From a virus, in the IMG/VR virus record IMGVR_UViG_3300021961_000108, positions 1 to 59,071 of that record: a stretch of 59,071 nt of DNA. The stretch is one strand, 5' to 3'. Shown here in pieces: positions 29,907-59,071 of this stretch (position 1 is its first letter; the number at the start of each line of letters is the position of its first letter). A program made the position numbers and the translations under genes. The notes beneath the pieces are model-generated. The model saw only the letters and a list, made by a program, of their open reading frames with translations, searched no databases and was not told the origin of the DNA.

Positions 29907-31025
29907 ATGATATGTAATTATACTAATACCATTGACTTATGTTCTAATAAATACTCTTATTCATTCATTAATGTAATACCTAGCGGTATCACAGTTATAG
30001 CTAATAAATCAGAGACTGCCCCTGTTTTACGTACTGATAAAAGTACACTAGAAACTAAAATTATTTCACCCTCTTCTAATAATCTTATACCCACATGTGA
30101 TATTAATGATAATAATGAAGACACCACAGACTGGGAATGTTATATAATATATCGTTATTTAGCTAGTGGTATTATTAGCGATCCCCCATTACAAACTTTT
30201 AAAGACGCTCAAATTGATCTAATCAACACCTCCTATTCCTCTACACTAGAGGAGGGCATATTAGTCACTATAAATAGCAAAAATATTATTTTAGGATCTT
30301 CTATAAATGATCAAATATCATATAAAAGTATTCTTAGTTATGCCCAGGCTTTATATGATGATGATACTGATGCCTCTATGCCACCCTTTACAGATAAGAG
30401 CGGTCAGATCTATAATCTATCTTATAGTGATCTAATAGTAGTTTTTAAAACCTATTTTGAGAAAGTTATACTATATAAAAACTTAAAAGACACACTAATA
30501 AATCAATGTTCTAACTCATCAACAATCGATGATATACAACAATTAAATTGGTCTAAGATAAAACCAATAACTGGTTCATTAATTGATACTAAGATTGTAA
30601 CAACAGTTGATAAACCTATAGTACAAAGTTGTATAGTAATTGATACTAATAATCCAGAAGCCGAAGACATAGAATGTCAACAAGATAGCGGAACAATATC
30701 TGGAAATGTTGCAGAATGTGCTTCTGTTAGCAATATAGCTACAATTACTAATAATTATTCCTCTCCAGCATTATTAGAAGCTAGCGGTGGTATTAATGAT
30801 GATTTACTAATTAATGGCTCAATATATGAACCAGGACAATATCCATTCTCATGGAGTTCCTATGGAAGTCCATGCGGATCGGACAATACTACAAATGGAT
30901 CTCATTCTTGGTCTTATTCTGTTATTTTAGCACCAGGAGAATCTATTACTTTTGGCTGTAAAGATAATGGTTTTGGTGGTGGATTTTATGGTAATTCATC
31001 ATGGACTTTAAAAACCTGTTTTTAA
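29907..31025 (+). CDS. Tandem paralog 3 with distinct C-terminal domain
   Basis: 372 residues starting MICNYTNTIDLCSNKYSYSF. The shared domain ends near 245 with STIDDIQQLNW. The C-terminal 110 residues are unrelated to those of paralogs 1 and 2: beta-rich, Gly/Ser/Asn-rich, with four Cys (ECQQDSGTISGNVAECASVS ... CGSDN ... FGCKDNGFGGGFYGNSSWTLKTCF), like a small lectin or jelly-roll. The stop overlaps that of the leftward sulfotransferase by 4 bases (TTAA), so the two transcripts converge. Confidence 0.6.
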   Translation: MICNYTNTIDLCSNKYSYSFINVIPSGITVIANKSETAPVLRTDKSTLETKIISPSSNNLIPTCDINDNNEDTTDWECYIIYRYLASGIISDPPLQTFKDAQIDLINTSYSSTLEEGILVTINSKNIILGSSINDQISYKSILSYAQALYDDDTDASMPPFTDKSGQIYNLSYSDLIVVFKTYFEKVILYKNLKDTLINQCSNSSTIDDIQQLNWSKIKPITGSLIDTKIVTTVDKPIVQSCIVIDTNNPEAEDIECQQDSGTISGNVAECASVSNIATITNNYSSPALLEASGGINDDLLINGSIYEPGQYPFSWSSYGSPCGSDNTTNGSHSWSYSVILAPGESITFGCKDNGFGGGFYGNSSWTLKTCF

Positions 31026-31627
31026 ATATTGTAATCCGAGACATAATCTGTATTATAATTAAATCTTAAAATATCTGGTTCCCACCACCATTTTAATTTT
31101 TCAATCATATTTTCTGATAATATTTGATGATAAGGTAATGTTCTTTGATTTATATTAAAAGTATTTAGGTTCATAAGATCTCCTCTTTTATCCAATACGT
31201 CTAATTCTAATAATTGATCCTCTAAAGTTTCTGTTTTGACAACAGTATAATCATAGTTTGCTTTTTCTAGTATTTTACTTTGATTCCATTGATAAAAATA
31301 AAAACAATGATTATTATTTGCTATGATATTTACAAAATCATTAATACTTGGGGCGTCTAGCATTTGAGTTACTCTTTCTTTTGCAAGATGACCCCATAAG
31401 CTCACAAATCTTTGTAAAGGATGTCTTACTACAACTATTACTTTCCACTTAAATGATGCTTGAGGTAATATTATAGAATGATGATCATAATAATTGGGGT
31501 CGTCACCGCTTGGTCCTATACAAAAAACCCCATAGTATGGTGGACGACATAATGTTTCAAATAAAGATGTGCTACCAGTTTTTGGTAGAGTAATAATAGC
31601 AGTTTCTTTACTATATAGTAATATCAT
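31022..31627 (-). CDS. Sulfotransferase
   Basis: 201 residues. LPKTGSTSLFETL (14-26) is the 5'-phosphosulfate loop and VVVRHPLQRFVSLW (65-78; R68, S77) the 3'-phosphate site of PAPS-dependent sulfotransferases; a His pair (DHHS, 48-51) may supply the base. The size is that of short bacterial/phage members. It transfers sulfate from PAPS to a hydroxyl, most often on a sugar or lipid. It is translationally coupled to the HAD gene upstream (ATGA) and is on the minus strand inside a rightward block. Substrate unknown; a glycan of host or virion is the natural guess. Confidence 0.8.
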   Translation of the reverse strand: MILLYSKETAIITLPKTGSTSLFETLCRPPYYGVFCIGPSGDDPNYYDHHSIILPQASFKWKVIVVVRHPLQRFVSLWGHLAKERVTQMLDAPSINDFVNIIANNNHCFYFYQWNQSKILEKANYDYTVVKTETLEDQLLELDVLDKRGDLMNLNTFNINQRTLPYHQILSENMIEKLKWWWEPDILRFNYNTDYVSDYNI

Positions 31628-33225
31628 TTTAGTTTTATATTTTTAACTGGATCCCATAACGAATGAATAACAGTATTAGTATAATTGTCTTCGTTCATTT
31701 TTTTAAGCAAGACTTCTGTAAGATCATCTACTCCATCAATATATGGTATATACACTTTGCTCCTACTAATAACACAATCGGTAACTTTATCAAAAATATT
31801 GCAAATATCTTGGTTATGTTCGCTCTTTTTTCTAACACATTCTCCATTCCAACCCACCATTGGTCCTAATTTTGGAGGAATATTGAATTTTTCTAACATT
31901 GTTCCACTACAACATTTTAGTCCAGCTTTTGATGCTCTTTTATTATGATGAAATTTTGTGTTTTCTATATCTTCTTTATATATTCTATCAAAACATATGT
32001 TTAGATTCTGAATGCCAGTATTTTTACGAATACTATCGCTATGTTCCGATACGAACATAATTTTTTGTTTTACATCCTGTTTTCCAAAAAAACTACCCGA
32101 GCTATATCCTGTACCATGAAGATCCACTATTACCTTATCTCTAGTAATATCTAATACGTAATCTATATATTCCTGACTATATGGATAGTAGTAAGAATTT
32201 CTACAAGACTCTAATACTGGAATGTTTGTGCCAAAAATACTATCGTATATTTTTTTAAAATAGTAACAGTCACGATAGGAAAAAATAATATCTTTAGGTA
32301 TTAAATAACTACTATTAATTAGTAGTGGCGTGTTATAAGAACACTGTTCACTCCATAGTATTTTCTCGTCGAATCTTTTTGTATTAATGGGCTGCTCTAC
32401 CCACTGTGCAAATATTGTATTTTCTTGGTTATTATACTCATTTATAATTGTAATCTTGTTTTCTTCTTTATATATAGTAATAATAATATTATCAAATTTA
32501 TCTCTTAATATGATTTTATTGCCAGTATCGTCTATTTGCTGCAGAAGTGTAATTTCTCCGTTTTGTTCTTTTATCCAATATGTTCCGTAGTAGTAACTTA
32601 TGGATCCATTTTCTAGAAGCACTGTTTGATAAGGAACGAAATAAGGATTATTAAGTCTAATATATTTGATCCAGTATGATAAGTATGGACTATATCTTTC
32701 TATTAACTTTTCATGATTTGTTAAATATGAGCCGCCATAATATATTGCTTTAAGATCATTTTTGCGAACTTGTTTTACATCAGAATGAGCATTATCGCCA
32801 GTATGATATTGTATGCCGTATTGATCTTTCAAAGAATCCCATATCGACCCATCGGCTTTTCTACCATATGTTGAATATACTCTAATATCTTTATTTAATC
32901 CATGGTATCTTAAAATATCTAATATTTGTTCCTCGTTCAAGTACATATCAGAAACAATAATATCTCCATCATTTATCCTATTAAAATTTTCTAAAATGGG
33001 ATAACTATATTCTTTTTCCAGTTGTAGTTCTAATTCTGGATCATGATCGGGCAAATGTTGGTATATACCATCTAAAGTTTTTTGTGAACATATTTTTTCC
33101 GCATACTTTCTTCTTTCAATAAAATTTTCATCCCCAGTAATATCTTGAATTAATCGAAATATAGAAACCGGATAATGATAATATCTAGCAATCAGAGTGT
33201 CGAAACAATCCCACGAATTTATCAT
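31624..33225 (-). CDS. HAD-superfamily hydrolase, two-part
   Basis: 533 residues. The N-terminal part is a HAD fold: INSWDCFDTLIAR with nucleophile D6, then GDIIVSDMYLNEEQILDIL (motif II Ser) and HTGDNAHSDVKQVRKN (motif IV). The family of SFDxFDTLxxR proteins is often found beside glycosyltransferases. Residues about 200-290 are beta-rich; residues 290-520 (IIFSYRDCYYFKKIYDSIFG..., VIVDLHGTGYSSGSFFGK...) may be a second catalytic unit or carbohydrate domain. No ribosome site is seen; a TATAAT sequence lies right before the ATG, so the mRNA may be leaderless. It is paired with the sulfotransferase. Confidence 0.75.
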   Translation of the reverse strand: MINSWDCFDTLIARYYHYPVSIFRLIQDITGDENFIERRKYAEKICSQKTLDGIYQHLPDHDPELELQLEKEYSYPILENFNRINDGDIIVSDMYLNEEQILDILRYHGLNKDIRVYSTYGRKADGSIWDSLKDQYGIQYHTGDNAHSDVKQVRKNDLKAIYYGGSYLTNHEKLIERYSPYLSYWIKYIRLNNPYFVPYQTVLLENGSISYYYGTYWIKEQNGEITLLQQIDDTGNKIILRDKFDNIIITIYKEENKITIINEYNNQENTIFAQWVEQPINTKRFDEKILWSEQCSYNTPLLINSSYLIPKDIIFSYRDCYYFKKIYDSIFGTNIPVLESCRNSYYYPYSQEYIDYVLDITRDKVIVDLHGTGYSSGSFFGKQDVKQKIMFVSEHSDSIRKNTGIQNLNICFDRIYKEDIENTKFHHNKRASKAGLKCCSGTMLEKFNIPPKLGPMVGWNGECVRKKSEHNQDICNIFDKVTDCVISRSKVYIPYIDGVDDLTEVLLKKMNEDNYTNTVIHSLWDPVKNIKLK

Positions 33226-34374: not shown

Positions 34375-37300
34375 ATGACTATAATAAATATTTTAGAAGA
34401 CTCTAATAACCCCACAAAATATCTTATAGTTACTAGTCAAGATGGCACTAGTGAAACACTAGTAACAACAAATGTTCTAGTTACTACCAGTTCTAATAAT
34501 AGGGCTGAGCTTATAGAGATTACTAAAATTCCAGGACCAAAAGGAGATAAAGGAGATATTGGTCCGGTTGGTCCAGCGGGACAAAATGGAGTAGTTTTTG
34601 ATATACTACCTATTAATAGTGGTGGTACTAATAACTCATCTTTTATTACGGATAAAGTAATATATTATGATGGGACTAAATTATCTAGTTCAGATCTAGA
34701 TATAAATAGTATTCAAACAAATATTATTAGTAATATTTATTCTGGTACAGGACTATCCAAGGTCCAAAGTGGAGATACTGTTACTCTTAATGCTAATCTT
34801 GGAGATGGATTAACAATTGTTGGCGAAAATCAAATAGGCATAGATACTAATATTGTTATTACAAAAAGTACATTGGATCTATCTGATACAAGTTTTTATC
34901 AAGGTATTTTACCCATAAACTATGGCGGCACCAATAATACTTTTTTTGGATTAAACTCTTTAGTATACTATGATGGAAGTAAATTAGCAACCTATCCCAT
35001 TCCCACCGGACAAATTGTTCATAGTGGTCAAAAAATTAGTGTTGTTGCCGGATCTGGGCTGGTCGGTGGTGGAGATATTACTCTACCAAATGGATCGGTT
35101 GTGATAAAGCTACAAAATTCAGATGATATTATTGTTTTTGATGATCATATAGAATTATCTAATATTATTTCTAGTGGAACTTATACTAAAGTATATGTAA
35201 ATAATAAAGGCAGAGTAATTGGCGGAACTAATCTGACTCTAAGTGATATTATTGCGGCTGTTGGAGGTACTCCATGGACTTCAGCAAATGATGGAGATGG
35301 TTCAGGATTAGATGCTGATTTATTGGATGGACAACAGTCGTCATATTACAGAGACGCTAGTAATATTACTGGAGTATTATCGACCAACCTTTTACCTGAT
35401 ATAGTTACTGCTGGCACAGCTTCTAAGGTACAATTTAATGCAAAGGGACTAATAGTTGATTCTGGAGTTTTACAATATCTAGATATTACAGATGCTTTAG
35501 GATATGTCCCTTTCGATAAAGGTGGTGGACAAATACTAAATGATGTAGAAATATTAGGAAATATTACCGCCGAAAGCGGTTTTTTTACAGATAATAGTAT
35601 AACACTAGGACAACCATATAATACAAATGACATAAGAGGAATACGATTCAGATACAACGATGTTCCTGCAAAATATGCTGTTTTAGCGTACTATCCAGCA
35701 GAAAATATTTTTCGTATATCTTCAGAAAGTCCTGGTACTAGCGGCGTTGTATTAACTCTTGAAAGAGCAGATAGTAAATATGTTGCTGTAACTGGCGAAC
35801 AACAAATTAGTGGTATAAAAACATTTTTAAATAGTATTCAATTATATGCCAGACTAATTGTACGTAATCCCACACCAGAGTTACCTCCATTTGATATAGG
35901 ATCTAACGATAAATTAGTACAATTCTTAAATTCTGATCTTTTAGACGATCAACATGGATGGTACTACAGAAATGCCATTAATTTAACAGGAACTTTGAAT
36001 TCTGATGTTATCATTCCGCATATTCAAAGTCGTGCAACGGTTTCATATTCAAATATTAACTCTCCAGATGATGGTTATTTGGAATACTTCCCAATTTTCC
36101 ATAGACCATCCTCCGGACATCCTATGGTATTAAGATCTAGTTATGTATATCAGACAGGATATAATATCCATATGGATGATGCTAGTTTGTCTATCGGACA
36201 AAATACTTTGGATGATAATATTACAAATTCTTTGGTGATCGGAACATCAAACAGCGGTAGTGCTCTTGCTCAAAATAGTTTAGCAGTTGGGTATGAAAAT
36301 ACTATTTCTGGAACAAATTCTTTAGCATTAAATTATAGAAGCTCTGCGGGTAAAAACAATAGCATAGCACTTGGTAAATACGGAGAAACCTGGGTTGATG
36401 ATCAAATATCAATAGGTGGATTCAAAAATTTCAATGTTGGTCAAGATGGTATCGCTCGTAAAGATTCTCATGGTCAATTATCTTATATACCATTAAAGTA
36501 TCATGGAGAGGCTGCCGGATATGTAAATATTTTAACGTTTACTTTACCAGAAAACAAAACTCTAGAGTATGAAGCAGAGCTGCTGTTCACGAAACAAAAA
36601 AATACTGGCGTAGCATCTTTTCAGATTACACCAGGAATAGTAAAAAATTATGGCTATAGGGATCCGGCCAGGGGTTATGCTGCATATAAAAAAGCTACAA
36701 TGGCAACTCACCATACCATAAAAGAGATATATAATAATTCTCAAGAAAGAACGTATGGATTATCTGTTAACTTAGTAACTGATCATGATGATATTTCAAG
36801 AACAAATAACTTAGAAGTAACAGCAGCTCCTTATCAATATCAAAGTCTTGATATCCAATCTTATGCTAATCCTGTAGTAATTTATCCTAAATCCGATTTT
36901 AGTACAAAGTTAAAAGCCACTAGAGATTCATCTGATCTGGGGTCAACATATAGAAAAAACTTTGTTGTTAAATTAGAACCATACGATAGGTCTCCTTTTA
37001 ATACTGGCGCACCAATAACTCTTGGCAGAAATATTAATCATATAACAGAATGTTTATATTATAGGCCATCAGGATCAAAAAATGGTATTATAAAATTTCC
37101 TAATCATGGATTAAGCAATCAATGTCCGTTTGATTCTTCTATATATATTGGTACAGGTAATATTAAATTATTAGCTAGAACAGATCAAATATTCGATTTT
37201 GGTATGCCCAAAGTTCGTAATACTGGATTATATACAAAGTCATTTTTTAGAGAAAATACTACTGGTAATCTGATTTACAGAACATATATTGATAAAAATA

Positions 37301-40300
37301 TTTATGGAACTATTAGCGGCACAGTATCATTTGACATTTATAAGACAAGTGGAACAACATACGAAGGCAATCTTATTTCTCCAGTCTTACCAACAGGAAC
37401 TACACAATGGAATGATAATTTTCCAGGATCCCATTCCGTTTATGCTACAACTTTATCATTTAATTTTCAAACAACTGGAATAAATTTATCAAATAATAAC
37501 TGGTCTGAATTATATAGTGAAAACAAAGCGCTATCTATTATTAAAAATAATAGTAGTGATTGGAATACATATGGTTTAAGTAATAGTATTAGCGGATATG
37601 TTAATTCCTATCTTGGATTGATAGAGTTTAATTTAAATACTAGTCTCCCTTTATCCGGACCAAATATTTATTTGTATACCAACCCACCATTTCCAGAAGG
37701 AGATGGACAAAATGTATATTTTAATCCGGATTACTATATTGATGATACCAATGCTACCATAAATATTTTACCATATTCTTATATACAATATCTATACGAT
37801 AATTTTTCTTATATAGATCTTAATACTATAGGATTTACTCAAAAACAATTATGTTATATTAATAATAATGATATGATCTTATTATCATATCCAACAACAT
37901 CAAAATATAGAGTAAATTCTAGTGTTACGCCATCCATAGATAATTTATATTTAGAAAAAAATGATACTATATTTATTAATGATACGTTAGATAATATTGC
38001 TAATATTTATATAGATAATAGTGGTCAAAAACATTATACTCTCACAAATTCGTATTCTGCTGGAACAGGATATGTTTATTTAGCAAGTTCAATCTCTGGT
38101 TTGGGTATTTCTTCTAGCAAATCATTCAATAATACAACTGGAACATATACATATAGTAGAAGTTCTAACTCTGATTATAGTACTATTTTACATGCAACTA
38201 CTTATGCTCCATTAACATCAGCCCCGATCATTGGATGTGTTCCTAATGAGCCCCCACACTATAGTCCAACGTGCTTGTATATTGTACCAACAGGACACGA
38301 ATTTATATTTACTCTTAATAGTGGAATTATTCCTAGTGGATCAGACTATGCCGATAATCTTGCATGGACATCATTTAATAGCAACTCTTTGATTGCTACA
38401 TCGTCTGTTATTTTACCACTTGGTCAAGATAGTATTAATTTACCACCTTTATTAATTCCAGAAGCTAGTATATATAGTAGTGGAATTAATGCTGTAAGAT
38501 GTAATGCCTCGATATTTGATTTTCGTTTAGATAATTTAAGATTGTCTAATACATACTACAATATATGGTATAGTGGATATAGTTCAGAAGCTAATACTGG
38601 TACTAATTCTATATATAATAATTTACCTGCTATTTTAGTTAGTGGAGATGTTAATCGATTCTATTTGGCAGTTACTGGAACCGGCGACTGCACTTTTGCT
38701 TATAAGGTATTAACAACTTTAGATAGTAATAATCAAAATTATATATCTAATACTTTTAGATCTCAAATTAATAATACTATCCCTACTATAGATAATATTG
38801 GAAACAAAATTATAAGGTGTTCTGACTGGGGATTATTGTCTAATCCTAATTGGTATGGTTCGGTAGATGTTAGTAATATTTCAGATTTAGATTTTAGTGT
38901 ATCATTACCACTATCATTAAACAATGATTTTATTAAAATTTTATCTACCAATACCTCTTCCACTGGTGTTTCTATTATCGGTTCTGGCACAGGATATCTA
39001 TCACCAGCCGATACTGGATTATGGACATCTTATGGTTTATCAGGGTTAAATAATATTTATGGGGATATTATATTATATCTAAAAGCTAGAGATAATTATA
39101 AGTATACTAATTTTAGTGGAATATTAAGTACTGGAATACCCAGCGATAATACAATCTATAGCAGAGGACTATTAGTTACAGAAATATATCCAGAAATTGT
39201 TTGTAATATATACTCATCAAATGGACAAAATACAGGGGTTTATTCTGTATCATTATCTAATAAGCAGGATTATCATACATTAACAGTTACTTGTCCTAGC
39301 TATCTAGATTATTTTAGAATACTATCATCCAATAAAACTCTAGATATTCATAATAATTTAAATATATCTTTTAATCTATTAGATAACAGTAATAGTGGTA
39401 TTGTATCTGGTATATTTTTACCCAATACTCAAAGAAATAAATATATAGTAAATAAACCATATAGTAAAATGTACAATGTTAGTAATGACACTTTTACTGT
39501 TGCTGTATTAAGTGGATATATGCCATCTGGTCTTCCAAATTCTGGACCAGTTATTCTTAATATTCCAAAAATATATGATCTTTTACATACTAGTCAGATT
39601 CCGTCCTATCATACAGAATCTCGTGGATCTTTTGATTTTAGATCTACCAGTAGTATTCTATCTAATGGATTATATACAATTGAAAGTTTTGATGAATATA
39701 GTATGTATTTATATGATTTTGCTAGAGTATTTGTTACCGGCTCTGACTATGGAACAGGAACTCTACAATACAATAATATTGGTTATAATATTACAGATGA
39801 TAAATTTAGTTTATGGGGTAAAAATTTTGCTGGAGACACTATTCTACATCCTTGGAGAGATGTACCAACATTTATATCCGATATTGCTGGATCGTGCGAA
39901 TCTGGTCGTTTATGTATTAGATTTTCTGGAATACCCAACTATTTTCAACTGAATGATAGTTTTTGGGTTGATGTAATACCTAATATTTATCCTCAATCTA
40001 CTAATTTAGTATATGCTAATGGATATTATGTAACAGGATTAAGTGGAGTCAATGATTCTACAATTTATATAAAGTGTCCTAGTGGAGTTCATTCTGGTAT
40101 AGTTCTTGGTATGAATACTTTTGATGCGTTTAATTATGTTCCGCTTAATTCATATATTACCACTTTTATAAGTGGAGAAGTTATTAGATTGAATAATAAT
40201 AATATTGGAGTACCACCAGTTTTCTACAATAATGTCCATGCTGGAACACTAAATAATCCATACTTATTTAGTTTTAGTAGAGAAACTATTGCTCAAAATA

Positions 40301-43300
40301 CTGAAAGTAATAATTTAAGAGAAGCTTGGAGAAATTTTATATCGGGTAGTTACACAATCTATAAAGATGAGGTTGCTCCAACAGTAGTTAGTATATTAAC
40401 CAGAATTCCACCATTTTATTATGATGCTTCTCATCAATATTATTCTGCTTGGAACACAACTCAAGCAACTAGAGGCGTTAATGTTTGGAGAAATACTGGT
40501 TCGACCGGAATATCAATGATGATTACCGGCACACAAAATATTCAAACAGACAAAAATCCTAATTATGGATATAGATTTGTTAGTACAACACCGTCATTTA
40601 GTTTTGAACCAAGTATAACAGGATACAGCTTATCAGGTAATACCATACATTCTACTCGAAGCGGTAATTTTAGATTTGCTCTTGATGATCTTAATAAGTA
40701 TTTATCTGTTAGCTCTAATAGTGGATTATATAGACCAACAGCTGGTTCTGGAAGATTAAGCTCTACTGTTGTATTTCCAGCAGCTGCTGATTGGACTATT
40801 AATAGCAGTAAAAGTGAAACCGTAAATATAATAGCTACAGATATAGATAATTTTAAATTATTAGGCGTTGATCTTATTAATCATAATAATATACAAACCT
40901 CATTAATTAGTTCTGGTAATTATAATTATATTGCTAGTGGATTAGCTCAAAATAGTGGTATTACTTTACGTTTTGGCTTGTGTGGCGGCGCAGGAGTGGC
41001 TGACCATAGACCAGAAATACAAGTATATGGATTAGAATCTAGTTATTCTTATTCTTCTAAGCACATTTATGGCATTCCTACTGGTAATCAAGGACTACTA
41101 AATTATAGTGAACAAATTAGTCCATATTCAAATATATGGTATATAGATCTATATATTAATGAGTTAAATAATATATCTTCTTTTTCATACTTATTTAAAG
41201 ACATATTATCATCAAGAGTTAGTGGAACAATATTAAATATTAGTGGATTGCCACCAAGTCCTTATATTAACAATTTTACAACTACAACATATTCTAATGG
41301 AACTAATCCATGGGTAGTATCATTTGATATTGAAAATGTTAGTAGTGGAACAAGCATAGGAATAAGCGGAGGCAGTGGAAATAATGTACTAATAATTAGT
41401 AGTGGACTAGCTTATAATACTTATTTATCTAAATGGCAAGCTTATGCTCTTGGTTCTACTCCATCAACTAATACAGTGTATAATACTGTTCCATTGGCTA
41501 TAACTGGTGCAATTACAATTCCATATACAGGAAATATTAAAGTAACTGGTACCAATGCCTCATATGCGCCACGCATTACAAATGTAGTAGATACGGTAAA
41601 ATTTAGAAATACTGGACTTGATCCGATTACATTATATTTTAATTACCAAAAAGAAGTTGGAGAGACTACAAATCCAACTATTCAATTAACAAATTATCCA
41701 ACAGGAGCAACAGTAAATTCCGTAAAGATCAACGACCCCGAACTTTCTGCACTAAATCAAGCGACAAATAAAGAATTATGGAGAATTACTATTAGCAACA
41801 TTGGAGTTACTGGCTATACATTAAATGGTATGGTTTCATTATCTCCATATACAGATAATTTTTCTACTAATATAATATCTTACGATCCATTTGTAATAGA
41901 TGCTGTTCTTGTTCCTGATCCCATAACTTTTGCTGGCCGAAATTGGCAAATTAACATATCTACTCTTGGTGGCGGAGGACCTTCTTATTTACCATATATT
42001 CAATTATTTAATGCTCCATCTATGTATGGTACTGGTACTACGGCGTACGATTACAATGTTGGTGGATGGGACATATCATTAACTGGAAACTTAGATACTT
42101 TGAATAGATATAATATGGTGACAGGACTATATAATATCAATTTATATATTCAAGATATTATTAGTTCAGTTCCAACCACAACCACTATGACATATAAATG
42201 TCCAGCAAATATTTTTGATCTTAGAAAATGGTATGCAGTAAAAGATAAATCATATCCTATAAATCTAGAAATACCTAATTGCTGTCGTTCAGAATACAAC
42301 ACTCTCTCAAACAATTTCACTATAAATCCTGATCTGCCAACTTCGGAAACATTATCATATAAAAAATATAATCCATTTACTAATACATATGAATTACGAT
42401 ATACCGGAGATCCTCCTATCGAAAAGTGGAATACAAGATTAGAGATATCTAATATAGGTAGTGAATATAGTTATGATGATCCAAACTCTAATACTTTTAC
42501 TATTGATGTCAAAGGTTTAGATACAGATGTTATTAGTGTTATTGGTTTATTAAAAATGAAAGAATTAGAGGTTATTAGTACTGATTATCCTCCATTAGAA
42601 ATTATTAATGTTAATCCTGAAGAAGATAAAACTAAAGAGTTAATACAAGGAACAGATTGGACACTTAGTTTTAGTGTTGTAGGAGGACTATCTAACCTTA
42701 ACTATCCTCCAACAATACTATTGAGTGGACTTCCGTCAGTATGTAGTGGTTATTTTCCAGATATTGATCCTGATGGTCCTCCATGCTTATCTAGTTATAG
42801 TTTTAATAATACAACCCTAAGATGGTCATTTAATTTTACTGGATCAAGTAATTGTAACACAGGATTATATAATATCAGCATAAAAGCTTTTGATTCTACT
42901 GGAGAAGATACTGCTTTTACAAATATACTATATACTCCATTGGGTATTCCTGGACCAAAAGTACAGTCAGCATTTCAAACTAATTCATTATTTCCTAACT
43001 GTTTGCCATTTTCTGGAGATATTAAGATTATTTCTCCAGAAAGAGGATTACCATGTCCATATACCACAGGTATTAAAGGATGGGAATTGATAGGATCATT
43101 ACCTAATGGATTAGCACTAGTTTCTAATAATATTGTTGGCTTACATCCTAGTTTATATACTGGCACAGGAACTATCTCCATAACCGGTACAGCAACAGCA
43201 TTTCCAGAAAATAATGTTTTCCCTCCATTTATTATAAGAGCAACAGGATTAAACGATAAGACAGCGCAAGCAACGGTAACTATGAATACCGCAGGAGTTA

Positions 43301-45294
43301 CTCCGATTGATGACAATCCATTATCTTTGACTATTTATTTCCCTTATTCTGGATATATTAGTCCAACATACAAACAAAATGTTAATGATACTCCTCATGT
43401 TAAATCAGAAAGTCAGCATGTTTATAAGCCATATCCAAGTACTGGAGCAATGATTTGTAGAAGTACTTTGTCAGAAAATAATTGTCCAACTTACTATACT
43501 GGCACATATACATTAATGACTCCAACTGGTAGCGGAGTCAATATATCTTTTGGCAGATCACCTATTAGTTCTTCAAACGTATTTGCTGTATTTGATAATA
43601 ATTTAACTAATAATAAAAATGGTATATATCAATTATTCGATATTACAAATCAAGAATTTTTTGATAATATTACACAACAATTATATTATGAATATTATGG
43701 TAAGCTATCTACATTATGCAATCCAGCACCAACTTTATTCTCCGGCTTAACTCCAGAATCGGGCTTTATTAAGCTTATGCCATTTGAAGTAACATCTATG
43801 AATGTCCCAGCCAGTCTGGATCTCGGAGGATTACCAAAAGGAACTATAGGATGTAATACATGTCTTCTTGGAAATGGAGAATTACAACAAAATGAGGGAG
43901 CAACACTTAAATTAATTGGTAAAATGAGACCATCAATGGCTTTTAGTATTACAGGTAATTCTTACCCCCTACAAAATTATGATAGTAATAATTCGTGTTC
44001 TGCTGGTGGATTTGGTTTTAGTATTCCCAATCTTACTTTGGTAAGTGGTGTTGAAACACAATTGTTACCAGGTTTTCCTTCTGGAGAACAAGAAGAAATT
44101 TGCTTTACTAATTGTTATGAAACTGGAGTTGCATATATTAGTGGTGTCGTTGTACCAACACCCATTTTAGAAATTACAGATGCTCCAGTTCCTCCCTACA
44201 TTTATAACGGTCAGTCAAATTCATTTGCATTAAGGTGCTCTTTTGGAGATACCACTGTTAAGAGAAATAGAAAAGAAAACTATAGAGAATTAGAAATCAA
44301 ATATTATATTAAACATTTAAATAGCGGATTATATTGGGATAATACAAACTCATTATTCACAGCAACAAAAACATTTATAAGCAAAAATACAACAGCAGAT
44401 CCTGCTAGTCCACAATCAATAGGATATACGGCTCCAATTATCAGCAGTGGTGCAATATATGAATTATTTATGGAAAGAAAAGCTGATGATTTTCCGACTG
44501 TAAATATTAACTCGTATCCATATATTAGTAATTCTATTTATTGGATTCATAGGGCTAATGATGATTCCACCCCAGCTGTATCTAGCACATATCCTGGATT
44601 CATGCCAATAAATTATGGCAGTGGATTAATTATACAAACAGGAGTTCCGTTCTATATTGCTGCACAAATTCTTGGTGGTAGTGGTTCATATCAACCTTCT
44701 ATATCTGGCTATCTAACATTAGCAAATCAGACAGGTGAAGTATTAGATATTAATGGCTTATCACATAATTTAGCAACAAGTATTAGTGGTTCTAATATAA
44801 CAGATGGCTTATGGAATATTCAAATTACTGGAAATATTACTGGACTATTTAATTCGTATCTTGTTGATTATGATCTTAGAATGGGTATTACAGAAAATAT
44901 ATTGGCCCCATTCCCCAAATCAACCACGAACATTATTCCTGTTACACTGGTTAAGCCGTTAGAACTAACTATTACTAGTGCTGGTGGCACAACATTGTCT
45001 GTAAATATTGGTACACAATGGGTGCTTTCGTTTAATATATCTGGAGGAAATAGACCACCAAGATATCATACTAATACTAGCCAGTGGGCTATTGATAATG
45101 AGCCGATTATAGAAATTAATGGAGATATTTGTAACTATACTATACAAAATAAAATATATAATGTCAATAATAATACTTGGTCATTTACATTGAGATCCAC
45201 AGCAATTATAAATAGCAATACTGTGTTAAACCTAGTTTATATTGATAAATTACAATACTCTATATCTGAAACAATAAACGTTCAAGTGGTATAA
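34375..45294 (+). CDS. Giant adhesin / fiber protein, 3,639 aa
   Basis: 10.9 kb, the largest complete gene here. Order of parts: a short base (1-50), six collagen-like G-x-y triplets (GPKGDKGDIGPVGPAGQNG, about 54-72), two copies of a GGTNN-x(8)-YYDG(T/S)KL module (85-205), DLLDGQ/DDQH..YYR motifs like fiber 1, and a YadA-head-like segment (NSLAVGYENTISGTNSLALNY, about 618-672). Then come about 2,900 residues of Ig-like/beta-sandwich modules separated by Y, N, S, G and T-rich linkers, many starting W-x(5)-SF/SG and containing G-x-Y-x-I/L. There is no signal peptide, membrane anchor or S74 chaperone. The start has no clear ribosome site and lies 6 bases after the previous stop, so it is probably coupled. 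Confidence 0.75.
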   Translation: MTIINILEDSNNPTKYLIVTSQDGTSETLVTTNVLVTTSSNNRAELIEITKIPGPKGDKGDIGPVGPAGQNGVVFDILPINSGGTNNSSFITDKVIYYDGTKLSSSDLDINSIQTNIISNIYSGTGLSKVQSGDTVTLNANLGDGLTIVGENQIGIDTNIVITKSTLDLSDTSFYQGILPINYGGTNNTFFGLNSLVYYDGSKLATYPIPTGQIVHSGQKISVVAGSGLVGGGDITLPNGSVVIKLQNSDDIIVFDDHIELSNIISSGTYTKVYVNNKGRVIGGTNLTLSDIIAAVGGTPWTSANDGDGSGLDADLLDGQQSSYYRDASNITGVLSTNLLPDIVTAGTASKVQFNAKGLIVDSGVLQYLDITDALGYVPFDKGGGQILNDVEILGNITAESGFFTDNSITLGQPYNTNDIRGIRFRYNDVPAKYAVLAYYPAENIFRISSESPGTSGVVLTLERADSKYVAVTGEQQISGIKTFLNSIQLYARLIVRNPTPELPPFDIGSNDKLVQFLNSDLLDDQHGWYYRNAINLTGTLNSDVIIPHIQSRATVSYSNINSPDDGYLEYFPIFHRPSSGHPMVLRSSYVYQTGYNIHMDDASLSIGQNTLDDNITNSLVIGTSNSGSALAQNSLAVGYENTISGTNSLALNYRSSAGKNNSIALGKYGETWVDDQISIGGFKNFNVGQDGIARKDSHGQLSYIPLKYHGEAAGYVNILTFTLPENKTLEYEAELLFTKQKNTGVASFQITPGIVKNYGYRDPARGYAAYKKATMATHHTIKEIYNNSQERTYGLSVNLVTDHDDISRTNNLEVTAAPYQYQSLDIQSYANPVVIYPKSDFSTKLKATRDSSDLGSTYRKNFVVKLEPYDRSPFNTGAPITLGRNINHITECLYYRPSGSKNGIIKFPNHGLSNQCPFDSSIYIGTGNIKLLARTDQIFDFGMPKVRNTGLYTKSFFRENTTGNLIYRTYIDKNIYGTISGTVSFDIYKTSGTTYEGNLISPVLPTGTTQWNDNFPGSHSVYATTLSFNFQTTGINLSNNNWSELYSENKALSIIKNNSSDWNTYGLSNSISGYVNSYLGLIEFNLNTSLPLSGPNIYLYTNPPFPEGDGQNVYFNPDYYIDDTNATINILPYSYIQYLYDNFSYIDLNTIGFTQKQLCYINNNDMILLSYPTTSKYRVNSSVTPSIDNLYLEKNDTIFINDTLDNIANIYIDNSGQKHYTLTNSYSAGTGYVYLASSISGLGISSSKSFNNTTGTYTYSRSSNSDYSTILHATTYAPLTSAPIIGCVPNEPPHYSPTCLYIVPTGHEFIFTLNSGIIPSGSDYADNLAWTSFNSNSLIATSSVILPLGQDSINLPPLLIPEASIYSSGINAVRCNASIFDFRLDNLRLSNTYYNIWYSGYSSEANTGTNSIYNNLPAILVSGDVNRFYLAVTGTGDCTFAYKVLTTLDSNNQNYISNTFRSQINNTIPTIDNIGNKIIRCSDWGLLSNPNWYGSVDVSNISDLDFSVSLPLSLNNDFIKILSTNTSSTGVSIIGSGTGYLSPADTGLWTSYGLSGLNNIYGDIILYLKARDNYKYTNFSGILSTGIPSDNTIYSRGLLVTEIYPEIVCNIYSSNGQNTGVYSVSLSNKQDYHTLTVTCPSYLDYFRILSSNKTLDIHNNLNISFNLLDNSNSGIVSGIFLPNTQRNKYIVNKPYSKMYNVSNDTFTVAVLSGYMPSGLPNSGPVILNIPKIYDLLHTSQIPSYHTESRGSFDFRSTSSILSNGLYTIESFDEYSMYLYDFARVFVTGSDYGTGTLQYNNIGYNITDDKFSLWGKNFAGDTILHPWRDVPTFISDIAGSCESGRLCIRFSGIPNYFQLNDSFWVDVIPNIYPQSTNLVYANGYYVTGLSGVNDSTIYIKCPSGVHSGIVLGMNTFDAFNYVPLNSYITTFISGEVIRLNNNNIGVPPVFYNNVHAGTLNNPYLFSFSRETIAQNTESNNLREAWRNFISGSYTIYKDEVAPTVVSILTRIPPFYYDASHQYYSAWNTTQATRGVNVWRNTGSTGISMMITGTQNIQTDKNPNYGYRFVSTTPSFSFEPSITGYSLSGNTIHSTRSGNFRFALDDLNKYLSVSSNSGLYRPTAGSGRLSSTVVFPAAADWTINSSKSETVNIIATDIDNFKLLGVDLINHNNIQTSLISSGNYNYIASGLAQNSGITLRFGLCGGAGVADHRPEIQVYGLESSYSYSSKHIYGIPTGNQGLLNYSEQISPYSNIWYIDLYINELNNISSFSYLFKDILSSRVSGTILNISGLPPSPYINNFTTTTYSNGTNPWVVSFDIENVSSGTSIGISGGSGNNVLIISSGLAYNTYLSKWQAYALGSTPSTNTVYNTVPLAITGAITIPYTGNIKVTGTNASYAPRITNVVDTVKFRNTGLDPITLYFNYQKEVGETTNPTIQLTNYPTGATVNSVKINDPELSALNQATNKELWRITISNIGVTGYTLNGMVSLSPYTDNFSTNIISYDPFVIDAVLVPDPITFAGRNWQINISTLGGGGPSYLPYIQLFNAPSMYGTGTTAYDYNVGGWDISLTGNLDTLNRYNMVTGLYNINLYIQDIISSVPTTTTMTYKCPANIFDLRKWYAVKDKSYPINLEIPNCCRSEYNTLSNNFTINPDLPTSETLSYKKYNPFTNTYELRYTGDPPIEKWNTRLEISNIGSEYSYDDPNSNTFTIDVKGLDTDVISVIGLLKMKELEVISTDYPPLEIINVNPEEDKTKELIQGTDWTLSFSVVGGLSNLNYPPTILLSGLPSVCSGYFPDIDPDGPPCLSSYSFNNTTLRWSFNFTGSSNCNTGLYNISIKAFDSTGEDTAFTNILYTPLGIPGPKVQSAFQTNSLFPNCLPFSGDIKIISPERGLPCPYTTGIKGWELIGSLPNGLALVSNNIVGLHPSLYTGTGTISITGTATAFPENNVFPPFIIRATGLNDKTAQATVTMNTAGVTPIDDNPLSLTIYFPYSGYISPTYKQNVNDTPHVKSESQHVYKPYPSTGAMICRSTLSENNCPTYYTGTYTLMTPTGSGVNISFGRSPISSSNVFAVFDNNLTNNKNGIYQLFDITNQEFFDNITQQLYYEYYGKLSTLCNPAPTLFSGLTPESGFIKLMPFEVTSMNVPASLDLGGLPKGTIGCNTCLLGNGELQQNEGATLKLIGKMRPSMAFSITGNSYPLQNYDSNNSCSAGGFGFSIPNLTLVSGVETQLLPGFPSGEQEEICFTNCYETGVAYISGVVVPTPILEITDAPVPPYIYNGQSNSFALRCSFGDTTVKRNRKENYRELEIKYYIKHLNSGLYWDNTNSLFTATKTFISKNTTADPASPQSIGYTAPIISSGAIYELFMERKADDFPTVNINSYPYISNSIYWIHRANDDSTPAVSSTYPGFMPINYGSGLIIQTGVPFYIAAQILGGSGSYQPSISGYLTLANQTGEVLDINGLSHNLATSISGSNITDGLWNIQITGNITGLFNSYLVDYDLRMGITENILAPFPKSTTNIIPVTLVKPLELTITSAGGTTLSVNIGTQWVLSFNISGGNRPPRYHTNTSQWAIDNEPIIEINGDICNYTIQNKIYNVNNNTWSFTLRSTAIINSNTVLNLVYIDKLQYSISETINVQVV

Positions 45295-52940: not shown

Positions 52941-55900
52941 ATGGCAGCATTCAATCTTACTGCACAACTTAATTTGGTTGGACCAACAAATGTTAGACAA
53001 ATTGTTGGAGATATTAGAAAACAATTAGGCACAATAAAGGGTAATATTGATCTTGGTATTGATCCTAAAGCTATAAGAGCTATTGCTCAATTACAAAGTC
53101 AAGCATCTCAAATAAGTTCATCTTTAAATAATGTTTCTAGATCAGCATCAGTAGCTAGTGGCTCTATTAACGACCTTAATAATGCTGCTAGTAAAAATCA
53201 ACTAGGATCAGTTGCTCAATCAGCAGCTAAAGCAGCAAGTGCTGCTAGTGATTTGGGTAAAGAAAGTTCACGATCATCAAAAGATGTTAAAGTTTTAAGT
53301 AACGAATTGGCTGAGTTCGGTAGACAAAGTGGTTTGGCTATTCGTCGTTTTGCCGCGTTTAGTTTAGTATCAGGCGTAATGTATAAGTTGAATAGTGCTA
53401 TTAATCAAGCATTATCACAATATATAGACTTTGATAGAGAATTAGTTAGAGTATCACAAGTTACTGGTAAAAGTGTTGCCGAGTTAGGGAGTTTAGTTAA
53501 TGAAATTAGTTCGTTAGCAACTAGTACCGGTGTTGCTTCAAAAGAATTAATTCAAGTATCAAGTACATTAGCACAGGCTGGTTTAAGTGCTAGAGATGCT
53601 GAGAAAGCATTAAAAGCATTGGCTCTGAGTGCTAATGCTCCATCATTTGATAATTTAAATGATACTGTGGAAGGCAGTATCGCACTCATGAGACAGTTTG
53701 GTATTAGTGCGGATGATCTAGAAAGTGCATTAGGTAGTGTTAATGCTGTGGCAGCTGCATTTGCTGTTGAAGCCAGCGACTTAATTGCTGCTATTCAACG
53801 TACTGGTGGTGTGTTTGCAAGTGCTAGTAGAGGAGTTAGTGAAGGTACTGACGCATTAAATGAATTTATAGCTGTATTTACAAGTGTTCGTGCTACAACT
53901 CGTGAAAGCGCTGAAACTATTGCTACTGGCTTAAGAACAATTTTTACCAGAATTCAGAGAGAATCTACTATTACTGCTCTTAGAGAGTTGGGTGTTGAAT
54001 TGCGCGATGTTGAAGGAAAATTCGTTGGGCCTTATGAGGCTGTTAGAAGACTTAGCGAAGGATTAGGACAATTAGATCCAAGATCTCAAACATTTGCTTC
54101 TATTGTTGAAGAACTTGGTGGTTTCCGACAAATTGGTAAAGTTATTCCTCTTATTCAACAATTTGCTACAGCGGAAGCAGCACTACAAGTTGCTATGAAA
54201 GGTGGAGATTCACTAGCAGAGGCTAATAGACAAGCTCAACAAGCATTAGCCGTACAATTAGCAAAAACTAGAGAAGAATTTGTTGCATTAGTTAGAGATT
54301 TTGCTAATAATACTGCTTTTAGAAGCTTTCTAACAACAACTATTGGTATAACCAAAAGTATACTAAGTTTAGCACGAGCAGGACGATCATTATTTCCACT
54401 ATTAACACTAATGGGAGGATTTAAAGCATTTTCTGCTGTGACTCAGTTTGCTGGCGGCTTTGCTCAAGGAGTAAGACCGTCTGGAGGCAGAGGAGGCGGC
54501 GGAGACGAAGAAGGCATAGATAATAAGGCTCTATCTAGAACTATGGGAAGAAGTGTATCTCGTAGTATTGGTAAGGGTTTGGGAGAAATGTTGAGTGGTT
54601 CAAAAACTGAAAGACAAGCAGAATCATTAGAGCAAATCGTTAGTATATTAAGAAGTAATGCACAAGCTTTTAATACTGATGTTAGTAGTTTATCTCAACC
54701 AATAACATCATTGTCTTCTTTATTAAATGATAATAATTCATTGTTATCTGCTAATACTAGCGGATTAAATAATGTATATGCTGCTTTAGTTAATTTAGAA
54801 GCAGCTATTAGTAGCAAAAGTTTTACTGGTCCAACCACTGCTAGAGGTGGTGGAAGAATACTGGGTTTCTCGAAAGGTGGAACTGTTCCTGGTAGTGGCA
54901 AAGGAGATAAAGTTCCGGCATTATTAGAACCCGGCGAAGTTGTAATGAGCAATAACGCTGTTAATAGATATGGAAGAGGTAATTTGGTAAGAATGAATAA
55001 GTATGCTACAGGTGGCAAGATACAAAAACGACTTAGTGATTTAGATCTTAATTTAAGCAAAGAAGTTTCTGGTATAGATTTAGCACAAACAGATATTAAA
55101 CTTAAAGAAATACAATTATTTCCAAATGATTTTGCTGAAATGCAAAAAACAATTATGGAAACCAAAAAAGAAACAACAAAAATTATAGAAAAATACCCAG
55201 GAAAAGAAACCGAACAATTTACTAAAAAATATAGAGGTGGTCAATGGTTGCTAGGAAAAGCCTTTCAGGAAATTGTTGAAAAAAAATATAATCTTAAAGG
55301 AGTAAGGCCATCTGGATTTGGAACATCCACAGAAAACTTTGATGATATCTTACAGGAACATTTTGCTCCATTGGATTATACAACAGGAGATGCAAAATTT
55401 GTTAAAAATCTAAATAGTATAACAAATGAAGAAATATTAAGTAAAAGATTGAGATATGAGTTTAAAGAGAATAAATTACGTCCAGATCCAAGTACAAAAA
55501 TAGAATCGTTTAATTTACCTGATACATCATTATACTATCCAGCAAAAGGCATTAAAGAAAGATTTGAAAGATATATTCAATCAACAGGAGAGTCTTCTAA
55601 AATTTTAGGAGGATATTTTAATCTTGGTGGATTAGTTCAAAGATTTATGGCCGGAGGAGAAGCTGAAGAAACAACACCTTGGGGAGATACGGCTACTGTA
55701 CCAGAAATTCTAAGACTTTTAACCTTTGATGGAGCTGCTAAGATCGGTAGAGTAGCAAATCCTAGAGAACTACTTAAAAGGAAAAAACCAACAGAAGATG
55801 AAAAAGCTAAGATAAAAGCTATCAGAGATGAAGCAACAAAAACATATAATAGAAGAATAGGAGCGGCCAAAGGAGTACAAACTAGATTAACTGGACAAGG

Positions 55901-58900
55901 ACTAAAATTTGCTGCGGTAGGAATGTTTGGAGATACTTTTCCAGACGAAACATATGATGCTGAAGGAACTAAAGGAACAAGAAAAGTATTGATCACAGCA
56001 GCATTGATGGACAGAGCATTAGCAGAACAACTAGATGCTGATTTTGGAGGTGGTATAGAATCAACAGCCCAACAAGCTGCTGAAAAAGTTATGGTTGGTA
56101 ATATTACTAAAGGGTTATTAGGAGGTAAACAAGCAGAATTTGATTTTGATAGAACATTAGCAGTTGGTGCTGATGATATAGCTAGCTTGAAAGATTTTAG
56201 AGATCCTGCTATTGTTCAAGAAAAATTAAAAAATGCAAGTTTAACAAGATTAGGTAGAGCACTAGTAGATTTAGTTAAAGCTCATCCAGAAATACTTCCT
56301 AATATGAGGATAGTAACAGCACGATCTCAGTCCACAGTACCACTAGTCCAAAGATGGCTAGCAGACAAAGGACTAGGATTGTCTGATTCTCAATTTGTGG
56401 GAGTTGGCGGCGATTCTCAAATAGTTTCCGAAAGCGATATTCCGGCATTAAAAGCTGCTCAATTAAGAGCAGGATCATTATTTGTTGATGATAGCGGCCC
56501 GAATATTAGAGCTGCTGAAGCTAGTGGTAAAAACATAGAAACATATCAGTATGGGGCGCAATTAACTACCCCTAATCCTGTTTTAGAGTCTAGTGTTAAG
56601 GGTATATTTTTTGAAAAAATGATACAAAATCTTGGAGGCCCCGGAGCAATTGCCGGACTAGGATTTGATTATCCCAAAGGTTTAGGACCTGCTGCTAAAT
56701 ATTTTGGTATTGATCCTGATATTCCTACTGATGCTAAAAGAACCATAGTTGGCGCAGGAACTATTAAAGATAATGTTAGAACTTATCTTAAAGCAATGGG
56801 ATATGCTGGTGGTGGAATGATTATGGGCAAAGGAAGAGGAAAGAAAGGGGCAAAGGGAGCCAGAGATGTTATAGAGCCTATTAGTAGTGAAACATATTTA
56901 AAATGGGCTCAGGGCATATATGATGAATATGATAAAGATCCTTCGTTAGTAATGACTACTGATGAACTCGGAATAAGAATGCCCCCAGAAATAGCATTAG
57001 CTAATAAACTATTAACACAACATGCGTTACAAACTGGAGGAGCAGGATTAAGCGTTGGGACAAGATTTGTTACAACACCGGAACAATATATAGACGACGC
57101 ATTAAGACCTTATCTTGTGCCAAATCCTAATAATCCTAATGAATTAGGTTTTTATGAAGATGTTATTGCTAAGTTTGGTAGGGCTAAAGCAGTATCAGCG
57201 GCAGCAACAAAAAAACTTGGTAAAGCAGAAGCATTGAAAGCTGTTGAAGCTAGAATGGAAACGTACACTGGTGCCGAAAATGCAATTACTGAATTTAAAA
57301 AGAGTGGAGTTCTAAATGTTAGTTCATCAATAATGGACTATATAATTAAATCAGTAAATAATCCTGATAATTTACCATTAGATAGTAAAGGTATCAATAG
57401 CATAAAGAAAAAATTAACAAAAAGTAATGTTGATGCTTTTAATGCTTTAGTTGGATCCCAAAAAACTCCTGTTAGTGTACAGGGCCAAAGAACAAAATTA
57501 GGAGAAGTTTTTAATGCTATATTAGAAACTTATGGTAGTGATGTATCTGATTTAGAAGTTGATAATATAACTAGAGCTATGGGAGAAAAATTAAATATTG
57601 GTGGACTAGTACAAAAGTTTGCTTTTGGTGGAAAAGCAGATGGTCCAGGATTTGAAGAAGTTCGAAAACAAATAATGGATAAATATCCAGAGGTTGATTT
57701 TAGAATTAGTAAGCGCAAAAAAGGAAGAGGTTTTGGATATAATTTATTAGGAGCTTTAAAAACAGATGGTGGATTATTAGGATCGAAAGGACTACAATTT
57801 GAACAGCCAAGTAATCTACAAAAACTAATTGAAGTTTCTGATAAAATGGCAACAAGCTTGATAAATCCACAAGAACTAGCGGTTGGTGGATTAGCAGATG
57901 CTACATCAGAAATGGCAAGTTTGATGGGTGGTCTTTATGGTAATAGAAAATCATCAGAAGCAGTCCCGGCTAAAAAACAAAAAGATTTTGGTAGAATAGG
58001 ATTAAATGAAGATGGTAATTTGATTAGTGCTGGTTATTACAAGAATGATCAAAGATCAGGATACGTTCAAGCTTATAAGATGAAAGATAATTTATATTAT
58101 GTAGGATTATCTAAAGCTACTAGTGGTTATGGCCCAAGATTATACGATGTGGTAATGGAAGCTGTTAGTGAAAAAGGGGCTATGTTAACTTCTGATAGAG
58201 GTATGGTTAGCGCAGAAGCTCAAAAGGTATGGCAATATTATTTTAAGAATAGAGGAGATGTTAAGAAAACGCCGTTGGAACCAGAGAACTGGACAAAAAA
58301 TCAATCATTAATTGATCCTAAACTTTATGGACGCAAAGAAACTTGGCCTCCATCAACTGATCCTGCTTGGGTATTACAAAGTGGATATAGTAAAAGTCCA
58401 AGTTTAATTAATGATCCTAATGCAGTTGTTAGAGGAAATAAAAAATCAACAGTATCTTCTGGACAAATGGCTCTGCAGTATTTCCAAAGAGCAAATGGCG
58501 GCAGACTAGGTTTTGCTACTGGTGGAAGTGTTGATGAGAATATAAAAAAGATTTCGGCAATGAGAATGAGGGAGATCGATATTGGAATGAATCTTAGAAG
58601 ACAACTTCCAGCAATGTCTCAAGAAGAATGGCAAAAAGAATGGGAAAAAATAAGATCAGCTCCTGGAGGCTCTCGACAATTAGCAGAGGAATTATTTGGT
58701 TCAGAAGAGGCGGCGAATAGAATCATTACTGAACAAGCTTATGCCAGAGTAAAAAACCCTCATAAGAACGGTGGTTTAATTAACAGATTCGTTGATGGCG
58801 GAACTGTCCCAGCATTAGTTAGTAATGGGGAAGCTTATGTTCCGCCCAAACTAGCTAAAAAGATCGGTTACGGAACTCTTAGCAAGATGAATCAGGCTGA

Positions 58901-59071
58901 TAAGAATGGTATGGGGCGATTTAGTAGTGGTGGAATTAGCGTATTTAAAGGACCCGGTAGCGGGACTAGCGATAGCATACCAACAAGTTTACCAGTTGGT
59001 AGTTTTATACTGAGAGAAAAGGCTACTAAAGCATTAGGCTTAAATAAAGGAGGAATGGTACAAAGATTTGC
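52941..59071 (+). CDS. Tape measure protein with enzyme-like cargo segments (3' end outside window)
   Basis: At least 2,043 residues, open at the right edge; ATG 52941 with GGAAAA upstream. Residues 1-150: helical heptads. About 177-390: PhageMin_Tail/TP901 tape-measure domain (SLATSTGVASKELIQVSSTLAQAGLS...ATGLRTIFTRI). About 640-690: first Gly tag, GGTVPGSGKGD then VPALLEPGEVVM. Then a PD-(D/E)XK-like segment (E777, D801, GDAKF D817/K819), tag GGLVQRFMAGG (896), a HAD-like segment (FDFDRT D1068/D1070, VTAR T1126, VDDSG D1183), a second PD-(D/E)XK-like segment (E1225, D1243, TDAK D1264/K1266), tag GGGMIMG (1290), an unknown helical part, tag GGLVQKFAFGG (1554), an acetyltransferase-like segment (about 1690-1780) and tags at 1853, 1944 and 2037. 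Domain calls beyond the tape-measure part are inference. Confidence 0.75.
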   Translation, partial: MAAFNLTAQLNLVGPTNVRQIVGDIRKQLGTIKGNIDLGIDPKAIRAIAQLQSQASQISSSLNNVSRSASVASGSINDLNNAASKNQLGSVAQSAAKAASAASDLGKESSRSSKDVKVLSNELAEFGRQSGLAIRRFAAFSLVSGVMYKLNSAINQALSQYIDFDRELVRVSQVTGKSVAELGSLVNEISSLATSTGVASKELIQVSSTLAQAGLSARDAEKALKALALSANAPSFDNLNDTVEGSIALMRQFGISADDLESALGSVNAVAAAFAVEASDLIAAIQRTGGVFASASRGVSEGTDALNEFIAVFTSVRATTRESAETIATGLRTIFTRIQRESTITALRELGVELRDVEGKFVGPYEAVRRLSEGLGQLDPRSQTFASIVEELGGFRQIGKVIPLIQQFATAEAALQVAMKGGDSLAEANRQAQQALAVQLAKTREEFVALVRDFANNTAFRSFLTTTIGITKSILSLARAGRSLFPLLTLMGGFKAFSAVTQFAGGFAQGVRPSGGRGGGGDEEGIDNKALSRTMGRSVSRSIGKGLGEMLSGSKTERQAESLEQIVSILRSNAQAFNTDVSSLSQPITSLSSLLNDNNSLLSANTSGLNNVYAALVNLEAAISSKSFTGPTTARGGGRILGFSKGGTVPGSGKGDKVPALLEPGEVVMSNNAVNRYGRGNLVRMNKYATGGKIQKRLSDLDLNLSKEVSGIDLAQTDIKLKEIQLFPNDFAEMQKTIMETKKETTKIIEKYPGKETEQFTKKYRGGQWLLGKAFQEIVEKKYNLKGVRPSGFGTSTENFDDILQEHFAPLDYTTGDAKFVKNLNSITNEEILSKRLRYEFKENKLRPDPSTKIESFNLPDTSLYYPAKGIKERFERYIQSTGESSKILGGYFNLGGLVQRFMAGGEAEETTPWGDTATVPEILRLLTFDGAAKIGRVANPRELLKRKKPTEDEKAKIKAIRDEATKTYNRRIGAAKGVQTRLTGQGLKFAAVGMFGDTFPDETYDAEGTKGTRKVLITAALMDRALAEQLDADFGGGIESTAQQAAEKVMVGNITKGLLGGKQAEFDFDRTLAVGADDIASLKDFRDPAIVQEKLKNASLTRLGRALVDLVKAHPEILPNMRIVTARSQSTVPLVQRWLADKGLGLSDSQFVGVGGDSQIVSESDIPALKAAQLRAGSLFVDDSGPNIRAAEASGKNIETYQYGAQLTTPNPVLESSVKGIFFEKMIQNLGGPGAIAGLGFDYPKGLGPAAKYFGIDPDIPTDAKRTIVGAGTIKDNVRTYLKAMGYAGGGMIMGKGRGKKGAKGARDVIEPISSETYLKWAQGIYDEYDKDPSLVMTTDELGIRMPPEIALANKLLTQHALQTGGAGLSVGTRFVTTPEQYIDDALRPYLVPNPNNPNELGFYEDVIAKFGRAKAVSAAATKKLGKAEALKAVEARMETYTGAENAITEFKKSGVLNVSSSIMDYIIKSVNNPDNLPLDSKGINSIKKKLTKSNVDAFNALVGSQKTPVSVQGQRTKLGEVFNAILETYGSDVSDLEVDNITRAMGEKLNIGGLVQKFAFGGKADGPGFEEVRKQIMDKYPEVDFRISKRKKGRGFGYNLLGALKTDGGLLGSKGLQFEQPSNLQKLIEVSDKMATSLINPQELAVGGLADATSEMASLMGGLYGNRKSSEAVPAKKQKDFGRIGLNEDGNLISAGYYKNDQRSGYVQAYKMKDNLYYVGLSKATSGYGPRLYDVVMEAVSEKGAMLTSDRGMVSAEAQKVWQYYFKNRGDVKKTPLEPENWTKNQSLIDPKLYGRKETWPPSTDPAWVLQSGYSKSPSLINDPNAVVRGNKKSTVSSGQMALQYFQRANGGRLGFATGGSVDENIKKISAMRMREIDIGMNLRRQLPAMSQEEWQKEWEKIRSAPGGSRQLAEELFGSEEAANRIITEQAYARVKNPHKNGGLINRFVDGGTVPALVSNGEAYVPPKLAKKIGYGTLSKMNQADKNGMGRFSSGGISVFKGPGSGTSDSIPTSLPVGSFILREKATKALGLNKGGMVQRF

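Follow-up and report, generated by a model that had tools for sequence, protein, structure and literature searches.

The tail tape measure protein (TMP) at the end of a 59,071-base virus contig, the whole of which is here called the window, contains two PD-(D/E)XK nuclease-like domains (segments 1 and 2) and, between them, a predicted HAD phosphatase. The nuclease-like domains are real domains, linked to each other through intermediates, and metal-binding and lysine residues are kept across very divergent phages. The enzyme domains were seen only inside TMPs, where the slot that holds segment 1 is common to ADP-ribosyltransferase and SNase domains. We lean towards the view that the TMP of this phage lineage is a polyvalent carrier that delivers nucleic-acid enzymes at injection.

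Tape measures are usually seen as rulers; a few phages have ones regarded as cutting the wall or forming membrane pores. If the carrier view is true, the TMP would be an injected multi-enzyme weapon, armed with nucleases, a phosphatase of the end-healing type and other effectors. It would also offer a direct, testable answer to what TMPs of great length are for, whose frames reach about 6,500 codons in these records, as well as a reservoir of small nuclease domains.

The tape measure protein and its modules

The frame at 52941-59069 was recognized as a TMP from its family matches and its great length: a Pfam search matched PhageMin_Tail (PF10145) at 2.7e-24 over aa 188-393, and the PHROG tape measure families 28, 4211 and 1533 were matched as well. 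Residues 1-640 share 44-80% identity with ORFs that resemble TMPs in other uncultured phages. The nearest that named phages offered was a set of weak matches to tape measures of the SPbeta group and short matches to the hinge in marine phages, none of them a close relative, and sequence searches of named phages with the whole TMP and with each segment returned no relative of the enzyme modules. The features of the protein are as follows; the list of modules is incomplete because the frame is still open at the contig end.

52941..59069, + strand: tail tape measure protein (TMP), 2043 aa; 3' end cut at the contig end
54864..55016 (aa 642-692), + strand: first hinge repeat, GGTVPGSGKGDKVPALLEPGE...MNKYATGG, from alignment and a hinge HMM
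55236..55583 (aa 766-881), + strand: segment 1, PD-(D/E)XK-like domain in the slot after hinge 1, from its own HMM and hhalign
55266..55397, + strand: predicted active-site span of segment 1, with Q776 (55266), D812 (55374), D817 (55389) and K819 (55395)
55620..55658 (aa 894-906), + strand: spacer motif NLGGLVQRFMAGG, from the sequence; similar spacers occur in relatives
56124..56555 (aa 1062-1205), + strand: HAD phosphatase domain with a DFDRTL motif and a predicted fold like that of the T4 Pnkp 3'-phosphatase
56586..56801 (aa 1216-1287), + strand: segment 2, PD-(D/E)XK-like domain directly 3' of the HAD domain, with 76 homologous domains
56613..56738, + strand: predicted active-site span of segment 2, with E1225 (56613), D1243 (56667), D1264 (56730) and K1266 (56736)
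57948..58490 (about aa 1670-1850), + strand: conserved TMP module, 48-69% identical to L006, L078 and L037
58767..59069 (from aa 1943), + strand: hinge-type repeats near the contig end, from the hinge HMM

The first-hinge motif marks module borders in relatives too. The conserved module at 57948-58490 had no Pfam match; judged by eye only, a motif in it resembles acetyltransferase-like virion domains. Elsewhere in the window, a 3639-aa frame upstream of the tail genes (34375-45294) also had no Pfam match, and the regions 3941-5713 and 31022-33225 hold genes for a GDP-mannose dehydratase and for HNH and ERCC4-type nucleases, close to the terminase, along with a sulfotransferase gene encoded on the other strand.

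Nuclease-like domains on either side of a predicted phosphatase

The bare order E - D - (D)xK was rejected as evidence for a nuclease: the pattern E-x(15-30)-D-x(12-22)-[DE]xK occurs 12 times in residues 641-2043, within the range of shuffled sequences (mean 6.7, range 0-20). Because motif order is uninformative and conservation decides, we collected relatives. Searching with the hinge repeat and the conserved N-terminus brought in a non-redundant set of 88 TMP frames, of which 82 exceed 1000 aa; little or nothing came from scans that used peptide patterns of the segments alone.

An HMM grown from these relatives defined a segment 2 family of 76 domains across the 88 TMPs. The preliminary description had pointed to E1225, D1243 and TDAKR (1263-1267) in segment 2, and these letters are both correctly placed and conserved. 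Position 1225 is E in 72 of the 76 domains and Q in the other four, position 1243 is D in every one, D or E fills position 1264 in 75, and at position 1266 there are 63 K, 11 T, one R and one A. The full E-D-(D/E)-K set is kept by 58 domains, in a family whose members are otherwise only 15-60% identical to the window copy. In a tree of the family, all 11 K-to-T forms make up one clade, which reads DATR or DTTR at this site (L019, L097, L151, L088, L148, L125, L012, L043, L155, L009 and the second copy of L138). These copies are perhaps inactive or mechanistically changed, yet still conserved.

At its deepest split (support 0.95) the same tree divides into copies that are mostly N-terminal and a group that includes the HAD-linked ones. 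Four TMPs (L091, L118, L134 and L138) have two copies each, one on each side of this split, which marks them as old paralogues; L134 and L118 share the order nuclease - HAD - nuclease with the window.

For segment 1, the domain assignment and the letters proposed earlier (E777, D801/D802 and GDAKF at 816-820) held up, but the choice of E777 and D801/D802 as catalytic residues did not. The segment 1 HMM matched L165, L166 and L167 and, independently, L150 (7e-8) and L136 (2e-6). Among the close homologues L165, L166 and L167, residue 777 varies between E, R and Q, residue 801 between D, P and K, and residue 802 between D and E. These three instead keep G772, F775, Q776, D812, D817 and K819, so the conserved candidate set is Q776, D812, D817 and K819. 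The place of Q776 is Q in all close homologues and E in the related L136, L150, L007, L015 and L143; on the sequences compared, Q776 is the residue that stands where the superfamily has E.

The preliminary description had also suggested that the two segments may be paralogous. Compared directly they do not match (hhalign 1%), but both are linked to an intermediate family of nuclease-like domains that occupy slot 1, the region after the first hinge, in other TMPs. With segment 1 and its homologue L167 left out of the family profile, segment 1 matched this family at a probability of 92% with a score of 40.4 (best of 60 shuffles 18.4), and the family in turn matched segment 2 at 90% with a score of 34.0 (best of 60 shuffles 11.8). 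L150 and L136 belong to this broader set, which takes in slot-1 domains such as those of L006, L009, L114, L142 and L133, with the motif E ... (P)[IL]D ... (D/E)xK ... K-x-LR. The comparisons support placing segments 1 and 2 in one PD-(D/E)XK-like superfamily, joined through the intermediate slot-1 family; the duplicates in the four relatives above bear out paralogy within the segment 2 family.

As for known nucleases, searches of Pfam, PHROGs, NCBIfam and PDB profiles returned no named nuclease family for either segment. Two slot-1 families aligned in register with Mrr_cat (PF04471), scoring 20.9 and 21.5 against nulls of at most 12.6 and control families at 8-10. The link is weak, with an hhalign E of about 0.003 per single comparison, and because the slot-1 families had been noticed by eye before the Mrr_cat test, we regard the alignment as supportive, not conclusive. 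Mrr_cat scored 15.2 against segment 2 (null 12.4) and below the null against segment 1. The VRR_NUC and NUDIX yardstick profiles were too sparse in sequences to say much.

These results bear on whether the motifs might be chance occurrences in a repetitive tail protein, with no relation to nucleases. The bare motif is indeed expected several times and named families went unmatched; against this stand the family-wide conservation of residues, the significant HMM links among independent slot-1 domains, and profile comparisons that scored two to three times as high as the best shuffle. We give chance a very low probability, and conservation already largely refutes it.

The AlphaFold model of segment 1, built from 4 sequences, was unusable. 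That of segment 2 runs helix (E1225), strand (D1243), short helix, strand (D1264 and the DxK motif), helix, at a pLDDT of about 45-76, and lacks the first strand of the alpha-beta-beta-beta-alpha core. When a model of the HAD domain plus segment 2 was searched with Foldseek and VIA-align, HAD matches filled the rows, so these searches speak to the HAD fold only.

An incomplete core in the segment 2 model, and one that is very short (about 75 aa), would suit a different explanation, in which the nuclease-like domains are non-enzymes, now or always, whose role in the TMP is that of compact knots that bind DNA or give structure. The Q for E in segment 1 and the T for K in 11 of the 76 segment 2 domains point the same way, and some nuclease-like copies may be inactive at these substitutions. 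That 58 domains of such low overall identity retain all four residues argues against knots as a general explanation, which we think quite improbable.

The segments had been described as flanking a HAD-like segment, and this placement is confirmed: a Pnkp-type HAD domain lies between segment 1 and segment 2. Its AlphaFold model has a pLDDT above 90 over most of its length, and its best structural matches by VIA-align and Foldseek are the phosphatases of T4 and bacterial Pnkp. Against 5uj0, VIA-align gave a Z of 12.8 over 127 residues at 15% identity, and the top seven rows were all Pnkp. Combining a HAD fold in the model with a DxDxT motif in the sequence, the domain is a probable HAD phosphatase of the Pnkp type. 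It has 29 homologues in TMPs, and a HAD domain with DxDxT lies directly before a segment 2 family domain in the window and 27 relatives; many related TMPs do without a HAD domain of this family. PD-(D/E)XK nucleases leave 3'-OH ends, and for that reason such nucleases alone do not explain a partner phosphatase.

Distribution in related phages and the variable slot

At least one nuclease-like domain is present in 79 of the 82 TMPs longer than 1000 aa, and at least two in 23 of them. When 20 whole virus records of 54-244 kb were examined, every member of the segment 2 family lay in a very long frame of TMP type, with one or two members in each record. Two bacterial phyla were also searched (395 and 398 genomes), with no true match to the family outside TMP-bearing contigs; one apparent match outside TMPs was trigger factor. 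The near-universal presence of nuclease-like domains in related TMPs suggests that the enzymes are injected together with the phage DNA.

When the stretch that follows the first hinge was searched against Pfam in 80 TMPs, it gave matches to ADPrib_exo_Tox (5.9e-8), ART-PolyVal (0.0019) and SNase (5.8e-6, from one member of the SNase-like set below). Since ADP-ribosyltransferase and SNase matches share this region, the slot seems to be a place for effectors in general and not for nucleases only. SNase-like DGDT domains were observed after the first hinge at about aa 605-835 in L013, L113, L123, L128, L159 and L094, and ADP-ribosyltransferase domains, placed by motif, in L120 (about aa 717), L087 (about aa 682) and L142 (about aa 901). 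A P-loop GSGKS in a kinase-like context was seen in L113 (about aa 831), L150 (about aa 887) and L100/L119 (about aa 911); in L113, the P-loop and a HAD domain in one TMP possibly form a Pnkp-like pair. Three TMP frames are very long, at 6,199-6,561 codons (G003, G010 and G012, from the records of L101, L142 and L149), and if enzymes are carried, tail length cannot scale simply with TMPs of this size.

The distribution also invites a more domestic reading, in which the HAD domain and segment 2 would be a housekeeping unit and not a weapon, processing or repairing phage DNA ends at entry, circularization or early replication, with only the slot-1 domain as an effector. Nearly every phage of the lineage has segment 2, mostly as a single copy, slot 1 is variable, and the Pnkp-like HAD has the fold of an end-healing enzyme, all of which fit such a unit. 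Yet the HAD family is missing from many of the TMPs, one clade has lost the segment 2 lysine, and nothing ties the HAD domain and segment 2 to phage ends. We consider housekeeping unlikely, and continue with the carrier view.

Proposed role and known systems

In the mechanism that we propose, the TMP would be laid out as a conserved tail-length region, a glycine-rich hinge, a variable enzyme slot and a conserved phosphatase-nuclease pair. In the window, the slot would be filled by segment 1, of PD-(D/E)XK type, and the pair would be the Pnkp-type HAD followed by the distantly related segment 2. The enzyme modules might sit unfolded or compact inside the tail tube. As with other TMPs, they would leave the particle along with the genome, and they would then fold once inside the cell and target nucleic acids at an early stage of infection. 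Their most likely act would be to cut the DNA of the host or of resident elements, with the phosphatase healing or preparing DNA ends; the phage's own DNA would need sparing, by modification or timing.

More tentatively, we may be dealing with a widespread lineage of uncultured phages in which the TMP is a modular delivery vehicle, its exchangeable effector slot and conserved phosphatase-nuclease pair threaded ahead of the genome and acting on the cell's nucleic acids at entry. Just as tentative is what the exchangeable slot would carry in such a vehicle, namely several kinds of nuclease, SNase and ADP-ribosyltransferase.

Enzyme activity built into a tape measure has a precedent in the TMP of mycobacteriophage TM4, which has peptidoglycan hydrolase motifs (cited in PMC13277306); the enzymes of TM4 act on the cell wall, whereas those predicted here would act on nucleic acids. 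Ejection of TMPs into the envelope is known (PMC13277306 and the work it cites). Sle1 and Tme, TMP-related effectors of the contractile injection systems of bacterial particles (PMC13277306), resemble the window TMP as tape-measure-like cargo with an effector end, which in the Sle1 and Tme systems is ejected. They differ in belonging to bacterial injection particles, and PMC13277306 mentions no nuclease. In the open-licence literature searched, a TMP with nuclease-like domains flanking a Pnkp-like phosphatase was absent.

At the level of single domains, the segments share with the PD-(D/E)XK superfamily (Mrr_cat being the nearest family tested) the predicted order helix-E, strand-D, strand-(D/E)xK, with the slot-1 families in register; they differ in being shorter, in having Q for E in segment 1 and in the lack of a family-level match. 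The HAD domain resembles the 3'-phosphatase domain of T4 Pnkp in its predicted fold and DxDxT motif. Unlike T4 Pnkp, it is joined to a nuclease-like domain within a TMP, and no kinase domain was recognized in the window TMP.

The closest described parallel for the whole protein is the polyvalent proteins of phages and conjugative elements, very long multi-enzyme polypeptides thought to be injected with DNA (Iyer et al., 2017; PMC5512222). Related TMPs have the same multi-enzyme architecture, with several disparate enzyme domains (nucleases, ADP-ribosyltransferase) in one long protein, and one relative matches ART-PolyVal itself. As differences, no metallopeptidase domain was recognized in the TMPs scanned, and the words 'tape' and 'TMP' are absent from PMC5512222. 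Here, unlike in polyvalent proteins, the carrier is the tape measure itself and the modules are set off by TMP hinge repeats. By analogy, drawn from domain architecture and residue conservation, the window TMP would work like a polyvalent injected effector.
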